34,108 nt of DNA from Clostridiales bacterium. GTDB lineage: Bacteria; Bacillota; Clostridia; Oscillospirales; JAAYOS01. The notes under the pieces are model-generated. The model worked only from the letters and a program-made list of their open reading frames with translations. It ran no database searches and had not been told where the DNA came from. The stretch covers positions 1-34,108 of the forward strand of contig JAAYOS010000141.1 of NCBI GenBank assembly GCA_012520195.1. The letters run 5' to 3'. The position numbers and the translations under genes are program-made. Positions 24,603-34,072 of the stretch are shown piece after piece (the first letter of the stretch is position 1; every line of letters starts with the position of its first letter).

Positions 24603-25940
24603 ATGATCGTTATTTATCCCTCTGCACTCAATGGAGAAATCAGTGCAATTGCGTCAAAGTCTGACGCCCACCGCAGTCTGATATGTGCAGCACTCTCTGA
24701 TGCTCCGACCAAAATCGAGTTGACAGCCGATTCAGAGGATATCAGAGCAACAATCAGCTGCATCCAGGCCTTAGGAGCCGAAGTCAAGAAAACCAAAAAT
24801 GTGCAGGGGAACCCTGAATACGAAGTAATCCCTGCGGTAGCAGAGCCCGCCAGACGCCCCGTGCTTGACTGCAACGAGAGCGGTACGACTCTGCGCCTTC
24901 TGCTGCCTGTTGCTGCAGCCATGTTTGATGAGGCTGCATTTGCAGGCAGCGGACGGTTGCCCGAGCGGCCGCTTTCTCCACTCCTTGAGGAGATGGAGAA
25001 GCACGGCTGCCGGTTTAGCGCGCGTCAAATACCGCTCTCAGTGAAGGGACGGCTTAAGGGCGGAGTGTTTACTCTGCCTGGAAATGTAAGCTCACAATAT
25101 GTATCGGGCCTAATGTTAGCTCTTCCTCTTACTGAGGAGGGAGGCAGTATAAAGCTCGTAACAGAACTGGAATCCTCTGGGTACGTTGACATGACAATTG
25201 AAACATTGAGAAAATTTGGAGTTGCTGTCGATGTACTGCCTAGTGGATTTACAGTTTCGGGAGGTCAGTTGTATAGGACTCCCGGTACACATAAAATTGA
25301 AGGCGATTTCTCAAATGCTGCTTTTTGGCTTACTGCAGGTGCACTTTCCGGTACTATTTCATGCTCATCGCTAAACCGGAAAACAAAACAGCCCGACAGT
25401 GGGATTGTCGCGGTTCTTAGAAGGATGGGGGCAGATATTGATTGGAGTAGTGAAGACTCTATTAGGGTTCACCGCTCGACCTTGCATGCAACCGAGATTG
25501 ACGCTTCAGAGATACCCGATCTGGTACCTGTTCTTGCAATCGCAGCCTCTGTGGCCAAAGGCACTACAGTTATCCGCAATGCTGGGCGCCTCAGACTAAA
25601 AGAGAGCGACCGCCTGTCCGCTGTGGCTGATAACTTGCGAAGGATTGGCGGTGATGTCAAGGAGTACGAGGACGGTCTTGAGATAACAGGGGTTGAACAG
25701 CTGGAGGGCGGAGAGATCGAAGGATATAACGACCACAGAATAGTAATGGCATTTGCCGTAGCTTCAACTGTAAGTCGAGGGCCTATTTTGATTCACGGCG
25801 AAGAATCGGTGAATAAGTCCTACCCGGACTTCTTTTCTGACTTTAAGAAGCTGGGCGGGACTGTGATATACAGAGATCCTAGACGTGGTTCGCAACATAA
25901 CAATATCAGGAGGGAGCAAAATGGAACTAAACGACATTAG
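24603..25940 (+). CDS. aroA: 3-phosphoshikimate 1-carboxyvinyltransferase (EPSP synthase)
   Basis: SKSDAHRSLICAALSD, CNESGTTLRLLLPVAA, RLKESDRLSAVADNLRRIGG, YNDHRIVMAFAVAS. Confidence 0.95.
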   Translation: MIVIYPSALNGEISAIASKSDAHRSLICAALSDAPTKIELTADSEDIRATISCIQALGAEVKKTKNVQGNPEYEVIPAVAEPARRPVLDCNESGTTLRLLLPVAAAMFDEAAFAGSGRLPERPLSPLLEEMEKHGCRFSARQIPLSVKGRLKGGVFTLPGNVSSQYVSGLMLALPLTEEGGSIKLVTELESSGYVDMTIETLRKFGVAVDVLPSGFTVSGGQLYRTPGTHKIEGDFSNAAFWLTAGALSGTISCSSLNRKTKQPDSGIVAVLRRMGADIDWSSEDSIRVHRSTLHATEIDASEIPDLVPVLAIAASVAKGTTVIRNAGRLRLKESDRLSAVADNLRRIGGDVKEYEDGLEITGVEQLEGGEIEGYNDHRIVMAFAVASTVSRGPILIHGEESVNKSYPDFFSDFKKLGGTVIYRDPRRGSQHNNIRREQNGTKRH

Positions 25941-27057
25941 AGCGAAAATCGACGCAATCGATGATGAACTTGTAAGCCTTTTTGCGCGTCGAATGGATCT
26001 GGCACTCGAAGTTGCCAAATACAAGAGGCAGAATGGGACGCCAGTCCTTAATAAGAGCCGCGAGCGTGAAATCATAAGCCGTGTTACTGAGCAAGTACCT
26101 GAGAGTCTCCAGGGTTATACAAAGGTACTATTCTCGACACTCTTTGATTTAAGTCGTTCGTATCAGAATGGACTACTGACAGAAATGAGCCCATTGGCAA
26201 CACAAATTGATCAGGCTCTCAAGAACACAAATGAGCAGTTTCCCTCAAAGGCGATCGTTGCATGTCAGGGTGTTGAGGGTGCATACTCCCAGATTGCCTG
26301 CGATAAGTTGTTTTCGCTGCCGAGCATTATGTATTTTCACCGGTTTGACGGCGTATTTAGAGCAGTGGACAAGGGTCTCTGCAGATACGGGATCCTACCA
26401 ATTGAGAATAGCTCCTACGGTTCGGTAATAGAGGTCTATGACCTAATGAAGCAGTACAGCTTTCATATTGTAAGAAGCATAAAATTACATGTACAGCATG
26501 TGCTGCTAGCGAAACCCGGTAGTGAGATGTCGCAAATTAGTGAGGTATTCTCGCACGAGCAAGCAATTGGTCAGTGCAGTGAATTCCTTAAGTCATTAGA
26601 TGTAAAGGTCACAATTTGTGAAAACACCGCTATGGCTGCAAAAATTGTTGCGGAGTCAGACCGGATGGATGTGGCAGCAATATCTTCGCCAAGCTGCAGA
26701 GAGCTGTATGATCTGGCAGTGCTTTCTGATTCGATCCAAAACACCGATGGAAATTTCACGCGCTTTATATGCATATCAAAAGAGCTGGAGATATATCCTG
26801 GCGCAAACAGAGTAAGCCTTATGCTGTCTGTACCACATAGACCCGGTGCACTCTATGAAGTAATAGCAAAGTTCTCCGCCCTAGGAGTGAACTTGACAAA
26901 ATTGGAGAGCCGTCCTATCCCCGGGAAGGATTTTGAATTCTTGTTCTATCTCGATTTGGAGGCTTCCGTCTATTCAGAGGAGCTTATTAGGCTGTTGTGC
27001 GAACTGAGCAGTGCTCCTGAAGGGATTGTTTTTCTTGGCAGCTATTCTGAAATATGA
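25921..27057 (+). CDS. pheA: Bifunctional chorismate mutase / prephenate dehydratase
   Basis: N-terminal AroQ-type chorismate mutase (MELNDIRAKIDAIDDELVSLFARRMDLALEVAKYK), then PDT domain and C-terminal ACT domain with LESRPIPGKDFEFLFYLDLE. Overlaps the 3' end of aroA by 20 nt. Confidence 0.93.
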   Translation: MELNDIRAKIDAIDDELVSLFARRMDLALEVAKYKRQNGTPVLNKSREREIISRVTEQVPESLQGYTKVLFSTLFDLSRSYQNGLLTEMSPLATQIDQALKNTNEQFPSKAIVACQGVEGAYSQIACDKLFSLPSIMYFHRFDGVFRAVDKGLCRYGILPIENSSYGSVIEVYDLMKQYSFHIVRSIKLHVQHVLLAKPGSEMSQISEVFSHEQAIGQCSEFLKSLDVKVTICENTAMAAKIVAESDRMDVAAISSPSCRELYDLAVLSDSIQNTDGNFTRFICISKELEIYPGANRVSLMLSVPHRPGALYEVIAKFSALGVNLTKLESRPIPGKDFEFLFYLDLEASVYSEELIRLLCELSSAPEGIVFLGSYSEI

Positions 27058-27085
27058 AAGCCCACGATGGAGTCAGGAGGATAAG

Positions 27086-28357
27086 ATGCTCTGCGGTTTA
27101 ATTGGAAAAAATCTAGCGCACAGCTACTCGGCAATAATCCATGAAGAGATTGGCCGATATAGTTATGATTTGATAAATCTATCCGAGGAGGAGCTGGAGC
27201 GGTTTCTTCAGAGACGCGATTTTCGGGGCATCAATGTGACAATCCCGTACAAAAAGTCGGTCATCCCCTATTGTGACAGCTTAGACACGACGGCGCTCAG
27301 AATCGGCAGTGTAAATACAATAGTAAACGACAGCGAAGGCAAGCTAAGAGGGTATAATACCGACTACTTCGGATTTCTCGCTATGTGCAAATGCTCCAAC
27401 ATTGATTTTAAGGGTAAAAAGGTATTGATTCTCGGAAGTGGCGGAACAAGCGCCACAGTGCACGCTGTAGCGACGGATATGGGTGCAAGCGAAATTATTG
27501 TTGTTTCGAGAACGGGAAGAGAAAACTACAGCAATGTGGATAGACATATGGACAGCAATGTAATTGTCAACACAACGCCAGTGGGTATGTACCCCAATAA
27601 CGGTGAGTGTCTGATTGACTTGAACGAGTTTACAAACTGTACGGGCGTAGTGGATGTTATATATAATCCTCTTCGTACTCGTTTGATTCAGCATGCACAG
27701 GAACTAGGTATCCCGTGCGTTGGGGGCTTAACCATGCTTGTAGCTCAGGCGTGTTACTCTGCACAATTATTTACTGGCGGAAAGTCCAGAGGAGATCATA
27801 GCAGTGCACAAAAAGTTAGCGGCGATGAGAACATCGCAAGGCTCCAGCGCTCTCTCCTTAGGGGTGTATGTAACATAACTCTTATCGGTATGCCCGGTAG
27901 TGGAAAAACAAGTATAGGGAATAAGGTTGCTTCAATGCTTGATAGAGAGTTTATTGATACCGACACACTCATAAGTCAGAGAGTTGGTATGACAATACCG
28001 GAAATATTCGAGAGGCACGGTGAAGCATATTTCCGCAGTGTTGAATCGGATGTTATCGCAGAGTACAGTAAGCTTTCAGGCAAGGTAATTTCATCTGGTG
28101 GCGGTGCAGTGCTTTCTGAAGAGAATCGCAGAAATATCCTTCAGAACTCCTTCGTAGTACAGATCACCCGAAGCATCGACGAACTGGAGGCTGAAGGCAG
28201 ACCGCTATCCCGAAGCTTGGACACATTGCGCAGGATGGCAGATGAGAGGCAACCGCTGTATGATATGTGTAGCATGGCTACGGTTCAGAATGATGGGTCG
28301 GTTGAGAATGCGGCAAGAAGGGTAGTGGAGGTCTTCAATGCGTATACTGGTGATTAA
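27086..28357 (+). CDS. Shikimate dehydrogenase / shikimate kinase fusion
   Basis: AroE half: LCGLIGKNLAHSYSAIIHE, INVTIPYKK, GGTSATVHAVA, NTTPVGMYPN. AroK half: ITLIGMPGSGKTSIGNKVASMLDREFIDTDTLI, SSGGGAVL. No stop between the halves. Confidence 0.93.
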   Translation: MLCGLIGKNLAHSYSAIIHEEIGRYSYDLINLSEEELERFLQRRDFRGINVTIPYKKSVIPYCDSLDTTALRIGSVNTIVNDSEGKLRGYNTDYFGFLAMCKCSNIDFKGKKVLILGSGGTSATVHAVATDMGASEIIVVSRTGRENYSNVDRHMDSNVIVNTTPVGMYPNNGECLIDLNEFTNCTGVVDVIYNPLRTRLIQHAQELGIPCVGGLTMLVAQACYSAQLFTGGKSRGDHSSAQKVSGDENIARLQRSLLRGVCNITLIGMPGSGKTSIGNKVASMLDREFIDTDTLISQRVGMTIPEIFERHGEAYFRSVESDVIAEYSKLSGKVISSGGGAVLSEENRRNILQNSFVVQITRSIDELEAEGRPLSRSLDTLRRMADERQPLYDMCSMATVQNDGSVENAARRVVEVFNAYTGD

Positions 28358-29005: not shown

Positions 29006-30322
29006 CTAATACTTTACTGAATGGGATTCGACCAGTTTTCTCGCGTGCTTTAGAGACAATTCAACATTCACTTTGACAACAGCATCGGTAAACTTGTTGT
29101 TCCAGTCATAAGCTAGTAGCTCATCAACAGTAAGAAAGTTTTTTGTCGCCTTGTCACCGAACTTGAAAGGGTCGACCCCCAAGGATCGGCACCTGTCGAT
29201 AATCTCTTCAATACGCTCTCTAATGTAGTCACGGCAGGTGTTTTCGACATACTCCCTGTCCGATTTATCCATGATGTCTAGTTCCGAATGTTCATTTAGC
29301 AGACTTCCCTTTAGTACTATCGTTACATGAATATGCGGTGCATCCTCCGACGTATCCACTCTGATCTTGTTTGAGGCTTTTTTCTCCAGTCGCAAAGAGA
29401 TTATCCCATCAACACCCTCAGGTGAGGGGACAGATAGATTGGCGCTTTTAAGCTCGTCACGCAGCATAAGGAGAAAACGCGTCTCATCACCGTCAAGCTC
29501 TGATATCATTTTGTCGCTTTCAAATAGCGCAGTTCCCCACAGTTCGATTTCGTTATCGCTTATGCGTGGAATTTCACCTGCCTTGTGGGCGCCACCTGGC
29601 TTGCTTACCCCTGACATATCGCCCTCGGAGGGCTTTTTATATGCAGAGAAATCGTTCGTGGCGGCTACAACTGCAATGCTCTGCGATGTTGGAGACTTCA
29701 TTGATACATAAAAGCCGCCGAGAGTGGTATACGGGAAATAGCCGATATCTTTGCTCTGCTGAACCCAAATGCGGTAGTTCTTAATTACAGAGGAGCCAAT
29801 GAACGGTTTATTTGCCATGACAAAGTCATATGCACTTCCCTTAGTCACAAGGAAGAAACTTGAGCGCCGCAGGTCGGGGTGACTAATCAACTGATACACA
29901 TAGTTGCTGATCCCCTCCATGGCAATCTCTTCGGATATTGCAATTACATGTGCCTGCGAGAGGTCAACTTGCCTTTGAATGGAGGCATTCAGCATGTCAA
30001 GCCCTTCTGATAGCGAGGGTGCATCCAGGGACACGATGGAGTATCCGTCCACACTGTGTTCCACTCCGCTTTCTCCACCGCCGCCTCCCGAACTGCTACC
30101 GCCCCCGCTACTTCCTGCGTTCGCTTTCTGTGATGGAAACTGCACTGTTATACGCCAGTTGTTTGTAGCACCCTTATCTATACCGATCACTGTTATATGG
30201 ACAAGATCATCTATTTCACGCGCATCAAAGCATCCTGAAAAGGTGACGAGAACTGTAGTAACTATTATGAACAACTTCATATATCGCATATATCGCCTAA
30301 TATATCGTCTATTTCTTTTCAT
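29006..30322 (-). CDS. Spore germination lipoprotein, Ger(x)C family
   Basis: Lipobox VTFSGCFDAREIDDLVHITVIGIDKG; GerC-type body; GerA-GerB-GerC order. Start at MKRNRRYIRRYM. Confidence 0.92.
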   Translation of the reverse strand: MKRNRRYIRRYMRYMKLFIIVTTVLVTFSGCFDAREIDDLVHITVIGIDKGATNNWRITVQFPSQKANAGSSGGGSSSGGGGGESGVEHSVDGYSIVSLDAPSLSEGLDMLNASIQRQVDLSQAHVIAISEEIAMEGISNYVYQLISHPDLRRSSFFLVTKGSAYDFVMANKPFIGSSVIKNYRIWVQQSKDIGYFPYTTLGGFYVSMKSPTSQSIAVVAATNDFSAYKKPSEGDMSGVSKPGGAHKAGEIPRISDNEIELWGTALFESDKMISELDGDETRFLLMLRDELKSANLSVPSPEGVDGIISLRLEKKASNKIRVDTSEDAPHIHVTIVLKGSLLNEHSELDIMDKSDREYVENTCRDYIRERIEEIIDRCRSLGVDPFKFGDKATKNFLTVDELLAYDWNNKFTDAVVKVNVELSLKHARKLVESHSVKY

Positions 30323-31412
30323 GTGCACCATCCCTCTTCTTTCTTAACAGCGAGATAACAAGGGTAAATATTGGCACTGCAAAAAAAGGGATCGATCCGA
30401 CCTGTCTTATCGTCTGTATACCCATATATACACTCCCCGATATATTCGACTCAATTAGACAGGCAAATAGCGTAATGATGCCCCAGCCCACTATTATTGG
30501 CCTTCTATCACGTATCCTAAATATCCTGCAGTAGATGCTTACAGAAGTATAGAATATTGCGGTGCACGAAATCAAAGTAGTTATTACCCACAGAAAGAGA
30601 AATATCGGTTCAATTCTCTGCAGGAATCTGCCCCTGTCTATCATCTGGCTTAGCTCGTACATCGGCGACACAACCTCTTGACTAATGTAGAAGGGGAAAG
30701 AGAGGACGTATGCAAGAAATGACAGTGTGGAAATCGCACCAGAAATGATAAGTGCAGTAAGCCCCGCTTTCTTAACATAGTCGGTGCCCTGTAGGGAGCC
30801 AGCAAAAACCGTCAATATGATTACTTCTCCATAAGTAGAACTTCTTAAAACTGCATATACCAGCGTCTTCTGAATACCGAACCCCAGTATTGGAAAAATG
30901 TTTGATGTATTATAGTCACCCGAGGCAAGGAACAACAGTGTCAGAAAACCAGCAACAATGAAGAAGGAGAAAATTTTCGCTGTGCGGACAAGTCCTTCAA
31001 GCCCAAAGAAGGATATTATGACCATGCTTATCACGAAGGCCGAGATGATAAACCAGTCGGGTGAGTTTCTCAATACATACAGGTGCAGCACTTCCTGAAA
31101 CTCGGAAATATTTTGGAATAGTAGATAAATCAGGTATGCTCCCAACAAAGCCGAGACCACTGATCCTAATATCTGACCGAATACAACCTCATATATCTCT
31201 GTCAGTCCGCGGCCAGGGAAACGCCTTAGCAGTACCACAATGAGGGCAAAGCATGCTAAAGCTATCAACCCGGAGAGAAGCGGCATGAACCATCCTGAAG
31301 GACCAAGAATGGCAGCTATAACAGCTGGACTCGTAAAAAATAGTTTTGCTGTGATTGCACAGACACAAAGCCAGACTGCTTCCTGAACACCGAATTTGCC
31401 CTCTTCGTGCAT
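30309..31412 (-). CDS. Spore germination permease, GerB family
   Basis: KFGVQEAVWLCVCAITAKLFFTSPAVIA N-terminus and multi-TM APC-like profile; between GerA- and GerC-like genes. Confidence 0.92.
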   Translation of the reverse strand: MHEEGKFGVQEAVWLCVCAITAKLFFTSPAVIAAILGPSGWFMPLLSGLIALACFALIVVLLRRFPGRGLTEIYEVVFGQILGSVVSALLGAYLIYLLFQNISEFQEVLHLYVLRNSPDWFIISAFVISMVIISFFGLEGLVRTAKIFSFFIVAGFLTLLFLASGDYNTSNIFPILGFGIQKTLVYAVLRSSTYGEVIILTVFAGSLQGTDYVKKAGLTALIISGAISTLSFLAYVLSFPFYISQEVVSPMYELSQMIDRGRFLQRIEPIFLFLWVITTLISCTAIFYTSVSIYCRIFRIRDRRPIIVGWGIITLFACLIESNISGSVYMGIQTIRQVGSIPFFAVPIFTLVISLLRKKRDGAHEKK

Positions 31413-31448
31413 TTTTGCTCCTCCATCATGTATAGATCATGTTTCAAG

Positions 31449-33275
31449 TCACTTCTCTTTGCTTTGCCAGTTCATTACGGGACTTCCTGCGCGCCTACGG
31501 TTACCGGTATTAAGATAATCCGGTCGCTGTGTTTGAGACCACACGGCCCCCCTTGTTATGACATCGGGGTTTTTCTCTGTCTTGGGTGCAACTGGGGAGA
31601 AGTACGGAACACCGAAGCTCTTAAGCGAGCTTGCCGACACGAAAAGCACAAGCAGCCCAAGGGAGATGCCGTAGAAACCGGCCATAGTACCAAGCAGAAT
31701 AAAAACAAATCGCACGGTTCGTAGCGAGTACGATAAATGGATGTCCGGGACCGAAAAGTTACCGAGGCCTGTTACTGCCACGATTATAATCAGCACCGGG
31801 CTAACAAGCCCTGCCTCTACCGCAGCTTGCCCCAAAACAATCGCGCCGATAATTCCGAGAGTCTGGCCTACTGCTCCCGGTATTCGGATCCCCGCCTCCC
31901 TAATAATTTCGAAGGTGAGTTCCATTATCAACACTTCTAGAAGTCCCGGGAAGGGAACGTTTTCGCGGGCTTGGTGTAATGACGACATAAGTTCAGACGG
32001 TATCATCTCGGTGTGGTATAGAGTGAGTGCGAGGTAAAGACCCGGTAAAAACACTGAAAAGCAGCACGCTACCAACCTGATATAGCGCTGGAAGGAACTA
32101 TATTGCCAGCGTAACAGAGAGTCGTCCGACGTGTGGAAAAGATCAAAAAATGTGATGGGGACGATGCTTGCAAGGGGTGTGCCTTCAAAAATGAGAGATA
32201 TATGTCCGTTCGCCAAGAAAGTTGCTGTTCTGTCGGGGCGCTCGGTGCTGATGCTTTGTGGAAATATGGAAAAGGGGCGCTGTTCTATTAGCTGATCTAC
32301 AATGCCCGATCCGATTGAGATATCAATATCGATTTTTTCCAATCGTCTCTTCATTTCTTCTACTAACTTAGGGTTTGCAACACCTTTGATATATAGAAGG
32401 GCGCAGGATATCTGTCCCTTGTTTCCGATTGGCATTATCTCGGTAATTAGGTCCTTTGTACGGAGAATCTTTCTGACAAGCGTGATATTCGTCCTCAACT
32501 GCTCGACAAAGGCCTCATGCGGTCCATATACTACAGTCTCATTTAGGGGCTCAGATACTGAACGCGATTCGTAGCCGCGGGTCTCCACGATGACACATTC
32601 AGTCGACCCGTCGATAAATAGGGCAGTTAGCCCGTTTAGGATCTCGCGTATTGCTGTTTTGAAGTCACTTTCACGCTTTATCTCATTTGCTGCCAGAAGA
32701 TTATCAGTGATATAGTCGACAGTGCAGACATCTTGTTCGTTTTCGGGGACAGGTCTCAGCATGAGTTGCCTGAGAATGTAATTATTGATCGTTTCTTTGT
32801 CAGCCATGCCGTCTATATACACCACAAAGGCATCGCAACTCTGCATAATGCGAAACTTACGGATAACAATATCCTTGTTCAAAGGGCTGTTCAGCTCTTG
32901 TTCAATGTACTTAAGATTGCGCAGCAAATCAGCATCGATAGGTTTCTCGTTCTTGGATTTGCAAGCTGACGAGCCTTCACTTTTCTCTGTCGATTTTCCC
33001 TCTGAACCCTCTGACCTATTACGCATCTGATTCCATTCAATGTAACTTACAGGGGTTGCCTTTTTGCCCGACTGCTCACTCTGAGAAGTCTGCGTCTGAG
33101 AAATATCTTTTGCTTCTCCCTTAGTGTCTCCGGACTCATCTGTATTTTCTATAACCCGCCCATCCAACGGTCCGTGGTCCGATTCATATGGTTCATCTTC
33201 CAACAGCTCAAACTCATTGTTGGACTGGGGTTCACTATAGAGTATTAGCTTTTTTAGTATTGATAGGATTTTCAT
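31449..33275 (-). CDS. Spore germination protein, GerA family
   Basis: CDAFVVYIDGMADKETINNYIL, FIDGSTECVIVETRGYESRSVSEPLNETVVYGPHEAFVEQLRTNITLVRKIL, PFPGLLEVLIMELTFEIIREAGIRIPGAVGQTLGIIGAIVLGQAAVEAGLVSP. Start at ATG 33275 after CCAGGAGGAAAAC. Confidence 0.95.
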   Translation of the reverse strand: MKILSILKKLILYSEPQSNNEFELLEDEPYESDHGPLDGRVIENTDESGDTKGEAKDISQTQTSQSEQSGKKATPVSYIEWNQMRNRSEGSEGKSTEKSEGSSACKSKNEKPIDADLLRNLKYIEQELNSPLNKDIVIRKFRIMQSCDAFVVYIDGMADKETINNYILRQLMLRPVPENEQDVCTVDYITDNLLAANEIKRESDFKTAIREILNGLTALFIDGSTECVIVETRGYESRSVSEPLNETVVYGPHEAFVEQLRTNITLVRKILRTKDLITEIMPIGNKGQISCALLYIKGVANPKLVEEMKRRLEKIDIDISIGSGIVDQLIEQRPFSIFPQSISTERPDRTATFLANGHISLIFEGTPLASIVPITFFDLFHTSDDSLLRWQYSSFQRYIRLVACCFSVFLPGLYLALTLYHTEMIPSELMSSLHQARENVPFPGLLEVLIMELTFEIIREAGIRIPGAVGQTLGIIGAIVLGQAAVEAGLVSPVLIIIVAVTGLGNFSVPDIHLSYSLRTVRFVFILLGTMAGFYGISLGLLVLFVSASSLKSFGVPYFSPVAPKTEKNPDVITRGAVWSQTQRPDYLNTGNRRRAGSPVMNWQSKEK

Positions 33276-33420: not shown

Positions 33421-33449
33421 TTGACAAAGACTTACTCGATGAATATAAT
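33421..33449 (+). promoter_or_regulatory. Consensus sigma-A promoter driving the T-box leader
   Basis: TTGACA (33421-33426), 17-nt spacer, TATAAT (33444-33449). Confidence 0.85.
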
Positions 33450-33455
33450 GTACAA

Positions 33456-33785
33456 CAATTAATATATTGAAACCGCTGATTAAGAGTAGTACATACCGAT
33501 ATGGTTTTTCCAGTGAGTTGCGGATGGTGTGAACGCGATAAAGACTGTGGTATGGAATGGACTTATGAGGGCAGAACGAAAGAGGATTGCACATACCTCG
33601 ATTGAGGGTCTCACAAACTAGAGACAAATGTTGCATCTTTGAGTAGCAGTCTGACGGGATCTCCACCCGTTACCAAGGGAGCATATATGTTTGTATATGA
33701 CTAGAGTGGGCGTATAACGCCAATTTAGGTGGTACCGCAGGAGCAGTAGCTCTTGTCCTAAGATGATTAGGACAGGGGCTTTTTT
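33456..33785 (+). ncRNA. T-box leader, probable Trp specifier (UGG)
   Basis: T-box core AATTTAGGTGGTACCGCAGG (33722-33741); Stem I with distal loop TTGCG-GATGGTGTGAA-CGCGA; loop-E pattern AGTA/CATACC...GGTATG/GAA followed by TGG (33558-33560); terminator at 33748-33785. Confidence 0.88.
33748..33785 (+). terminator. T-box terminator hairpin
   Basis: AGCTCTTGTCCTAA-GATGA-TTAGGACAGGGGCT, 14-bp stem with two G-U pairs, followed by a T tract. Confidence 0.9.
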
Positions 33786-33820
33786 GATGGAAAAACTGTA
33801 GATGAAAAGGAGGTGGTTTT

Positions 33821-34072
33821 ATGGCTGATGGTTGGTGGCGATTAATCTGGAGCAGTTCGAATATGTTGAGCTTACGCAGATTAACCTCACGTAGGTTGAG
33901 CTTAAGCAGATTAAGTTCGGGTTGGGCAAATAAGTCTTCGAGCAGGTCAAATAAGTCTATATGCAGAAATGAAAATCTATTTTGGAGGAGCCACTATGAA
34001 ACGCTATATAAACCGCCTTTTTATTATATTGTTACTGGTAATCGTAACAATATGTGCAATGGTGTCCTGTGA
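33821..34072 (+). CDS. Trp-rich, repeat-containing ORF (83 aa) directly after the T-box
   Basis: MADGWWRLIWSSSNMLSLRRLTSRRLSLSRLSSGW...; strong SD AAAAGGAGGTGG; 3' part overlaps the downstream lipoprotein gene in another frame. Confidence 0.4.
   Translation: MADGWWRLIWSSSNMLSLRRLTSRRLSLSRLSSGWANKSSSRSNKSICRNENLFWRSHYETLYKPPFYYIVTGNRNNMCNGVL

Follow-up and report, generated by a model that had tools for sequence, protein, structure and literature searches.

Why should an operon behind a tryptophan T-box carry a short, Trp-rich open reading frame (ORF) between that T-box and its first gene? The question arises at one end of the window analysed here, which is an entire contig of 34,108 bases (G000:C50). 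A preliminary description of the locus saw in the ORF a trpL-like leader peptide and a second layer of tryptophan sensing, with ribosomes that read through at plentiful Trp occluding the start of the downstream lipoprotein gene. Comparison with homologous loci favors the leader peptide and the second sensing layer, but not occlusion as a general mechanism.

The tryptophan locus of the window

The T-box upstream of the ORF scores 96.7 bits in a covariance-model match, above the RF00230 gathering score of 93, has an intrinsic terminator, and carries after GAA a UGG specifier by which it reads tRNA-Trp (Table 1). As first described, the ORF lies between this T-box and the lipoprotein gene, is led by a strong Shine-Dalgarno (SD) sequence, and has Trp at codons 5, 6 and 10, with two more later in the frame. 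It also overlaps the lipoprotein gene by 77 nt; that gene starts at 33996 behind its own SD, GGAGGAG (33984-33990).

Table 1. Features of the T-box operon at the end of the window
Feature	Position	Strand	Remarks
Promoter, sigma-70 type, TTGACA-17-TATAAT	33421-33449	+	12/12 consensus match, directly upstream of T-box; promoter of operon
T-box leader, Trp (UGG) specifier	33467-33763	+	Rfam RF00230; specifier context GAAUGGAC
Intrinsic terminator of T-box	33748-33780	+	Stem of 14 pairs, then T-run
SD of leader ORF	33807-33816	+	AAGGAGGTGG
Leader ORF, ATG start, 83 aa	33821-34072	+	MADGWWRLIW..., open reading frame
Conserved part of leader peptide, MADGWWRLIW	33821-33850	+	xDGW(W) class found in homologous loci
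Unconserved tail of leader ORF, 77 nt into trpX	33851-34072	+	Homologous leaders without counterpart
Tandem 15-nt and 21-nt repeat block	33862-33957	+	Spacer about 96 nt longer; repeat families D1, D2
trpX SD and 5' part, cut by contig end	33984-34108	+	Start ATG 33996

Another contig of the same genome (C29) opens with the C-terminal end of an ABC_sub_bind protein and continues with a TrpY-like permease and a TrpZ-like ATPase. Across an inferred contig join this gives the TrpXYZ arrangement, in which an ABC_sub_bind lipoprotein precedes the permease and the ATPase. The window lipoprotein is TrpX, the lipoprotein of a tryptophan ABC transporter, with the middle of the gene missing at the join. 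Elsewhere in the window, a gerA-type spore germination operon (29006-33275, minus strand) diverges from the T-box operon, and two fusion genes, one of chorismate mutase and prephenate dehydratase and one of shikimate dehydrogenase and shikimate kinase (together 25885-28354), adjoin aroA (24603-25940).

Seven T-boxes were identified in the genome, and two other T-box loci served as internal controls. A complete ABC_sub_bind locus on contig C69 stands behind a T-box with a UAC (Tyr) specifier, and a trpB2-like gene on contig C12 stands behind a T-box with a UGG specifier; neither locus has a leader ORF. The C69 locus and locus L022 of genome G001 represent a second T-box-controlled ABC_sub_bind transporter with a UAC specifier, likely for tyrosine, and at both the SD comes straight after the T-box. 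No member of the TrpA or TrpC family was detected in the genome, which is 96% complete; the organism is therefore probably dependent on uptake of Trp or indole, and Trp import matters to it. Together with the T-box-controlled trpB2-like gene, their absence suggests salvage of indole or Trp.

Searches for the peptide itself returned little. Pfam and PHROGs gave no family for it, and among 148 genomes sampled from the class the window alone matched a DGWW pattern. The one other genome of the genus yielded no ortholog of the Trp locus, so the window ORF is comparable over roughly its first seven codons only.

Recurrence and evolution of the leader

We collected trpX loci by protein homology, blind to the leader, from order-level relatives and 80 named contigs, which gave 76 loci with a UGG T-box and distinct spacers. 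An SD-led ATG ORF lies within the spacer at 43 of these, and every one of the 43 has Trp within its first 20 codons. When the same 76 spacers were dinucleotide-shuffled for 100 rounds, any such ORF appeared at 9.1 +/- 2.3 loci and a Trp-bearing one at 2.4 +/- 1.4 (maximum 6), a comparison that, given kinship among the loci, overstates the number of independent events; the TrpX tree described below addresses that kinship. Spacer length divides the sample sharply: where at least 150 nt separate the T-box motif from trpX a leader is present at 43 of 48 loci, and at shorter spacers at none of 28. Leaderless loci make up about 40% of the total, and most of them have short spacers. Among the named carriers of a leader are Caproiciproducens faecalis, C. 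galactitolivorans, Candidatus Onthovicinus, Ca. Avimonas, Ca. Schneewindia and Peptococcaceae metagenome-assembled genomes; the trpX loci of Papillibacter, Clostridium viride and Butyricicoccus have no leader ORF. Seven leaderless loci (L058, L060, L098, L099, L106, L108 and L116) share a stretch rich in CCATC and GCCGCC that lies between the terminator and trpX.

The leaders take two forms. In the GW/GWW form, to which the window belongs, Trp stands at codons 5-7 (MADGWWR, MPDGWWQ, MQDGWWR, MIDGWWR, MTEDGWRE). In the RW form it stands mostly at codon 8 (MILLKERWRG followed by stop, MFLLTRRWR..., MAMYGKRWRG...), the position of Trp in 24 of 47 trpX leaders. On a tree of 75 TrpX proteins the states RW, GW and no leader require 17 changes, against a mean of 32.9 after shuffling, and RW and GW leaders are mixed inside clades. 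This interchange indicates that an early Trp codon, rather than a peptide, has been kept. Close pairs differ within the conserved part of the leader by synonymous changes and in-frame indels, with three synonymous and no nonsynonymous changes in one pair (L107/L114), and their leader tails evolve freely.

The tail of the window ORF contains degenerate repeats of 15 and 21 nt, both periods preserving the frame. In the window 163 nt separate the Trp codon from the trpX start, a distance that falls to 67 nt once the 96-nt repeat block is subtracted, and the median elsewhere is 70; the overlap therefore seems to have arisen as a side effect of repeat growth. The preliminary description had built its mechanism on this 77-nt overlap, which in the window accompanies a lineage-specific repeat block and is no general design.

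A chance ORF, or a translated spacer with no regulatory role, could account for a tail of unconserved repeat sequence such as that of the window. We regard this reading as improbable, in view of the shuffle test, the codon invariance and the recurrence at trpB described below. Judged by its sequence, the leader ORF is more than chance: the conserved, Trp-rich ORF predicted to recur at homologous T-box-transporter loci is present in many genera, at a frequency beyond shuffle expectation. The window ORF is likely a genuine, Trp-responsive leader peptide.

Codon context and leaders ahead of trpB

In the RW form the constraint extends to the bases around the Trp codon. Every one of the 30 RW-form trpX leaders has CGA as the Arg codon preceding its first Trp, and CGA accounts for 5 of 131 Arg codons (3.8%) over the initial 900 nt of the trpX genes that follow leaders. 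Where Arg follows Trp it is encoded by CGN, with all four third bases and never by AGR; other codons after Trp specify Q, Y, H, C, W or stop and begin with C or T. The base 3' of UGG is thus C or T in all RW leaders while the next residue varies. Invariant CGA and this pyrimidine place the constraint around UGG at the level of RNA or codon context, beyond the peptide alone. Decoding of CGA relies on inosine wobble, and a pyrimidine on the 3' side of a codon makes for poor decoding. One his-leader assay employs CGA-CGA as its slow codon pair (PMC11805395). From these properties we infer that CGA-UGG-pyrimidine may represent a Trp codon that is deliberately slow.

The same residues raise the question whether the leader senses an antibiotic, and not Trp, as +X+ arrest leaders (Arg-X-Arg) do: RWR fits that motif, and an Arg-Leu-Arg uORF has been described upstream of hflX (PMC8632094). 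However, Q, Y, H, C or a stop may follow Trp, the GWW class has no preceding Arg, and the trpX loci stand behind UGG-specifier T-boxes. Because the residue after Trp varies, Arg/Lys-X-Arg/Lys does not describe these leaders; we rejected this candidate and consider it most improbable.

A pattern search for SD-ATG-x5-CGA-UGG was used to find further copies, and 20 sites were picked and fetched. Eighteen precede a trpB or trpB2-like gene, and two are ordinary gene starts. At one of the 18 (L238) an ECF-type S-component gene, possibly for a Trp or indole transporter, stands between an RW leader and trpB. At those of the trpB and trpB2-like loci that were checked a T-box lies upstream of the leader, and all readable specifiers are UGG. 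Since the search pattern fixed CGA and codon 8, these were excluded as evidence, and only the flanking T-box and Trp gene were counted. Within the window's own genome a pattern search for an RW leader elsewhere gave two matches, neither of them a leader. The sequences compared here point to a family of leader peptides that probably occupies the space between Trp T-boxes and trpX, trpB or trpB2-like genes, in the window's order and in other Clostridia.

Possible consequences of a paused ribosome

These observations of conservation, position, codon constraint and gene association suggest a model in which translation, pausing, the sign of the effect and the action of the pause are all predicted. 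T-box antitermination would come first; ribosomes would then load at the leader's strong SD and reach the Trp codon or codons, mostly at codons 5-8. Where Trp-tRNA is scarce they would pause there, in a context that seems tuned for it (WW, or UGG preceded by CGA, and then a pyrimidine), and the pause would let Trp-tRNA be read a second time, at the level of translation. Physiological logic and the analogy with rtpL both predict that a starvation pause raises expression of the downstream gene, either by keeping its start free or by protecting the 5' region of the mRNA. Loci of the trpX and trpB type that carry a leader would, by this model, probably sense tryptophan twice.

A tandem of T-box and Trp leader peptide is known from the anti-TRAP operon of Bacillus subtilis (Chen and Yanofsky 2003, 2004, as cited by PMC2896485, PMC4027176 and PMC11255114). 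The Clostridial loci resemble this rtpL-rtpA (at) operon in the succession of Trp T-box, short SD-led ORF with Trp codons and regulated gene, and in two successive readings of Trp-tRNA. They differ in lineage and in target, which is anti-TRAP in Bacillus and a transporter or tryptophan synthase here. They differ further in the form of the leader (RW or GWW, with invariant CGA in the RW form) and in the leader stop, which does not generally lie beside the target SD.

This last difference bears on rtpL-type occlusion, in which ribosomes finishing or reading through the leader at plentiful Trp would block the downstream start and stalled ones would free it. Tandem transcriptional and translational control of this kind is documented for anti-TRAP, and of 65 leaders 25 have their stop no more than 30 nt from the start of the gene and 6 beyond it, several of the latter in frame with trpX. 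In the window, folding with a modelled ribosome at W6 or W10 lifts trpX SD accessibility from 0.26 to 0.53-0.59, which is compatible with the sign expected from occlusion but is no evidence of that sign. Against this, 34 of the 65 leaders stop more than 30 nt upstream of the gene, where a terminating ribosome would not cover the target SD, and some stop directly at the Trp codon (MFILAVRW, MFVLVQRW and MFLLTKRW, each followed by stop); nor is the stop suitably placed in the window, where the ORF extends beyond the trpX start. Several stops overlap the downstream start as ATGA, an arrangement usually associated with positive translational coupling. Overall, stops range from deep inside the downstream gene to 127 nt upstream, and their distance to the gene is far more variable than that of the Trp codon (median 70 nt, quartiles 63-83). 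With stop positions so scattered, covering of the downstream SD cannot be a common principle, and as an account of the family rtpL-type occlusion seems rather unlikely; in the window, SD covering by ribosomes may add to control. A general RNA switch hiding the trpX SD was also considered and rejected, mean accessibility being 0.45 both free and ribosome-stalled; the corresponding values for trpB are 0.47 and 0.54.

Alternatively, a ribosome paused at codons 5-8 might act as a 5' roadblock that shields the message from RNase J (5'-to-3') or Rho, so that more message would survive Trp starvation. Message protection by such a roadblock is known for erm leaders. The place of the Trp codon is fixed from the leader start, as the position of the stop is not, and the spacers after Trp are A-rich and G-poor, without an RNA switch. 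The clustered distance from Trp to the gene is not needed by this reading, to which we give about the same limited credence as to occlusion. A broader proposal, slightly better placed and still tentative, is that CGA-UGG-pyrimidine at codons 7-8 makes the Clostridial leaders a sensitised detector of the starved codon that operates with neither occlusion nor attenuator hairpins, for instance through message protection.

Classical trpL attenuation, in which ribosome pausing tips the balance between mutually exclusive hairpins and so prevents a second terminator, is suggested by the early GWWR-like cluster of Trp codons in this short ORF, which recalls enteric trpL. Yet no terminator-like hairpin lies between the Trp codon and the gene at any of the 65 loci, many spacers being nearly unstructured, and the window holds the T-box terminator alone. 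Unlike enteric trpL, the window leader is followed by no attenuator, and the T-box handles the transcriptional step; across the leader loci we found no conserved structure or terminator able to turn a pause into regulation. Attenuation is accordingly a very poor candidate. Like the cysS uORFC-8-2 (PMC8632094), the leaders are short ORFs whose conserved cognate codons keep a nearly fixed position; uORF attenuators of that study have a terminator after the uORF, whereas the Clostridial Trp leaders have none.

In Streptococcus suis a UGG T-box has been shown experimentally to control transcription of trpXYZ; in the accessible part of that report (PMC9382623) the leader is described as non-coding, with no leader ORF reported. 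In the literature searched, which lay mostly outside subscription journals, no trpX or trpB T-box operon is described as having a leader ORF. What is established, then, is the tandem at Bacillus anti-TRAP; the loci compared here place it at genes for Trp uptake and synthesis in many Clostridia. The architecture of these loci does not fit the rtpL occlusion model, and the fixed CGA before UGG makes the idea of pausing directly testable. In these bacteria, annotation will overlook genuine small ORFs in the spacers ahead of trpX and trpB.
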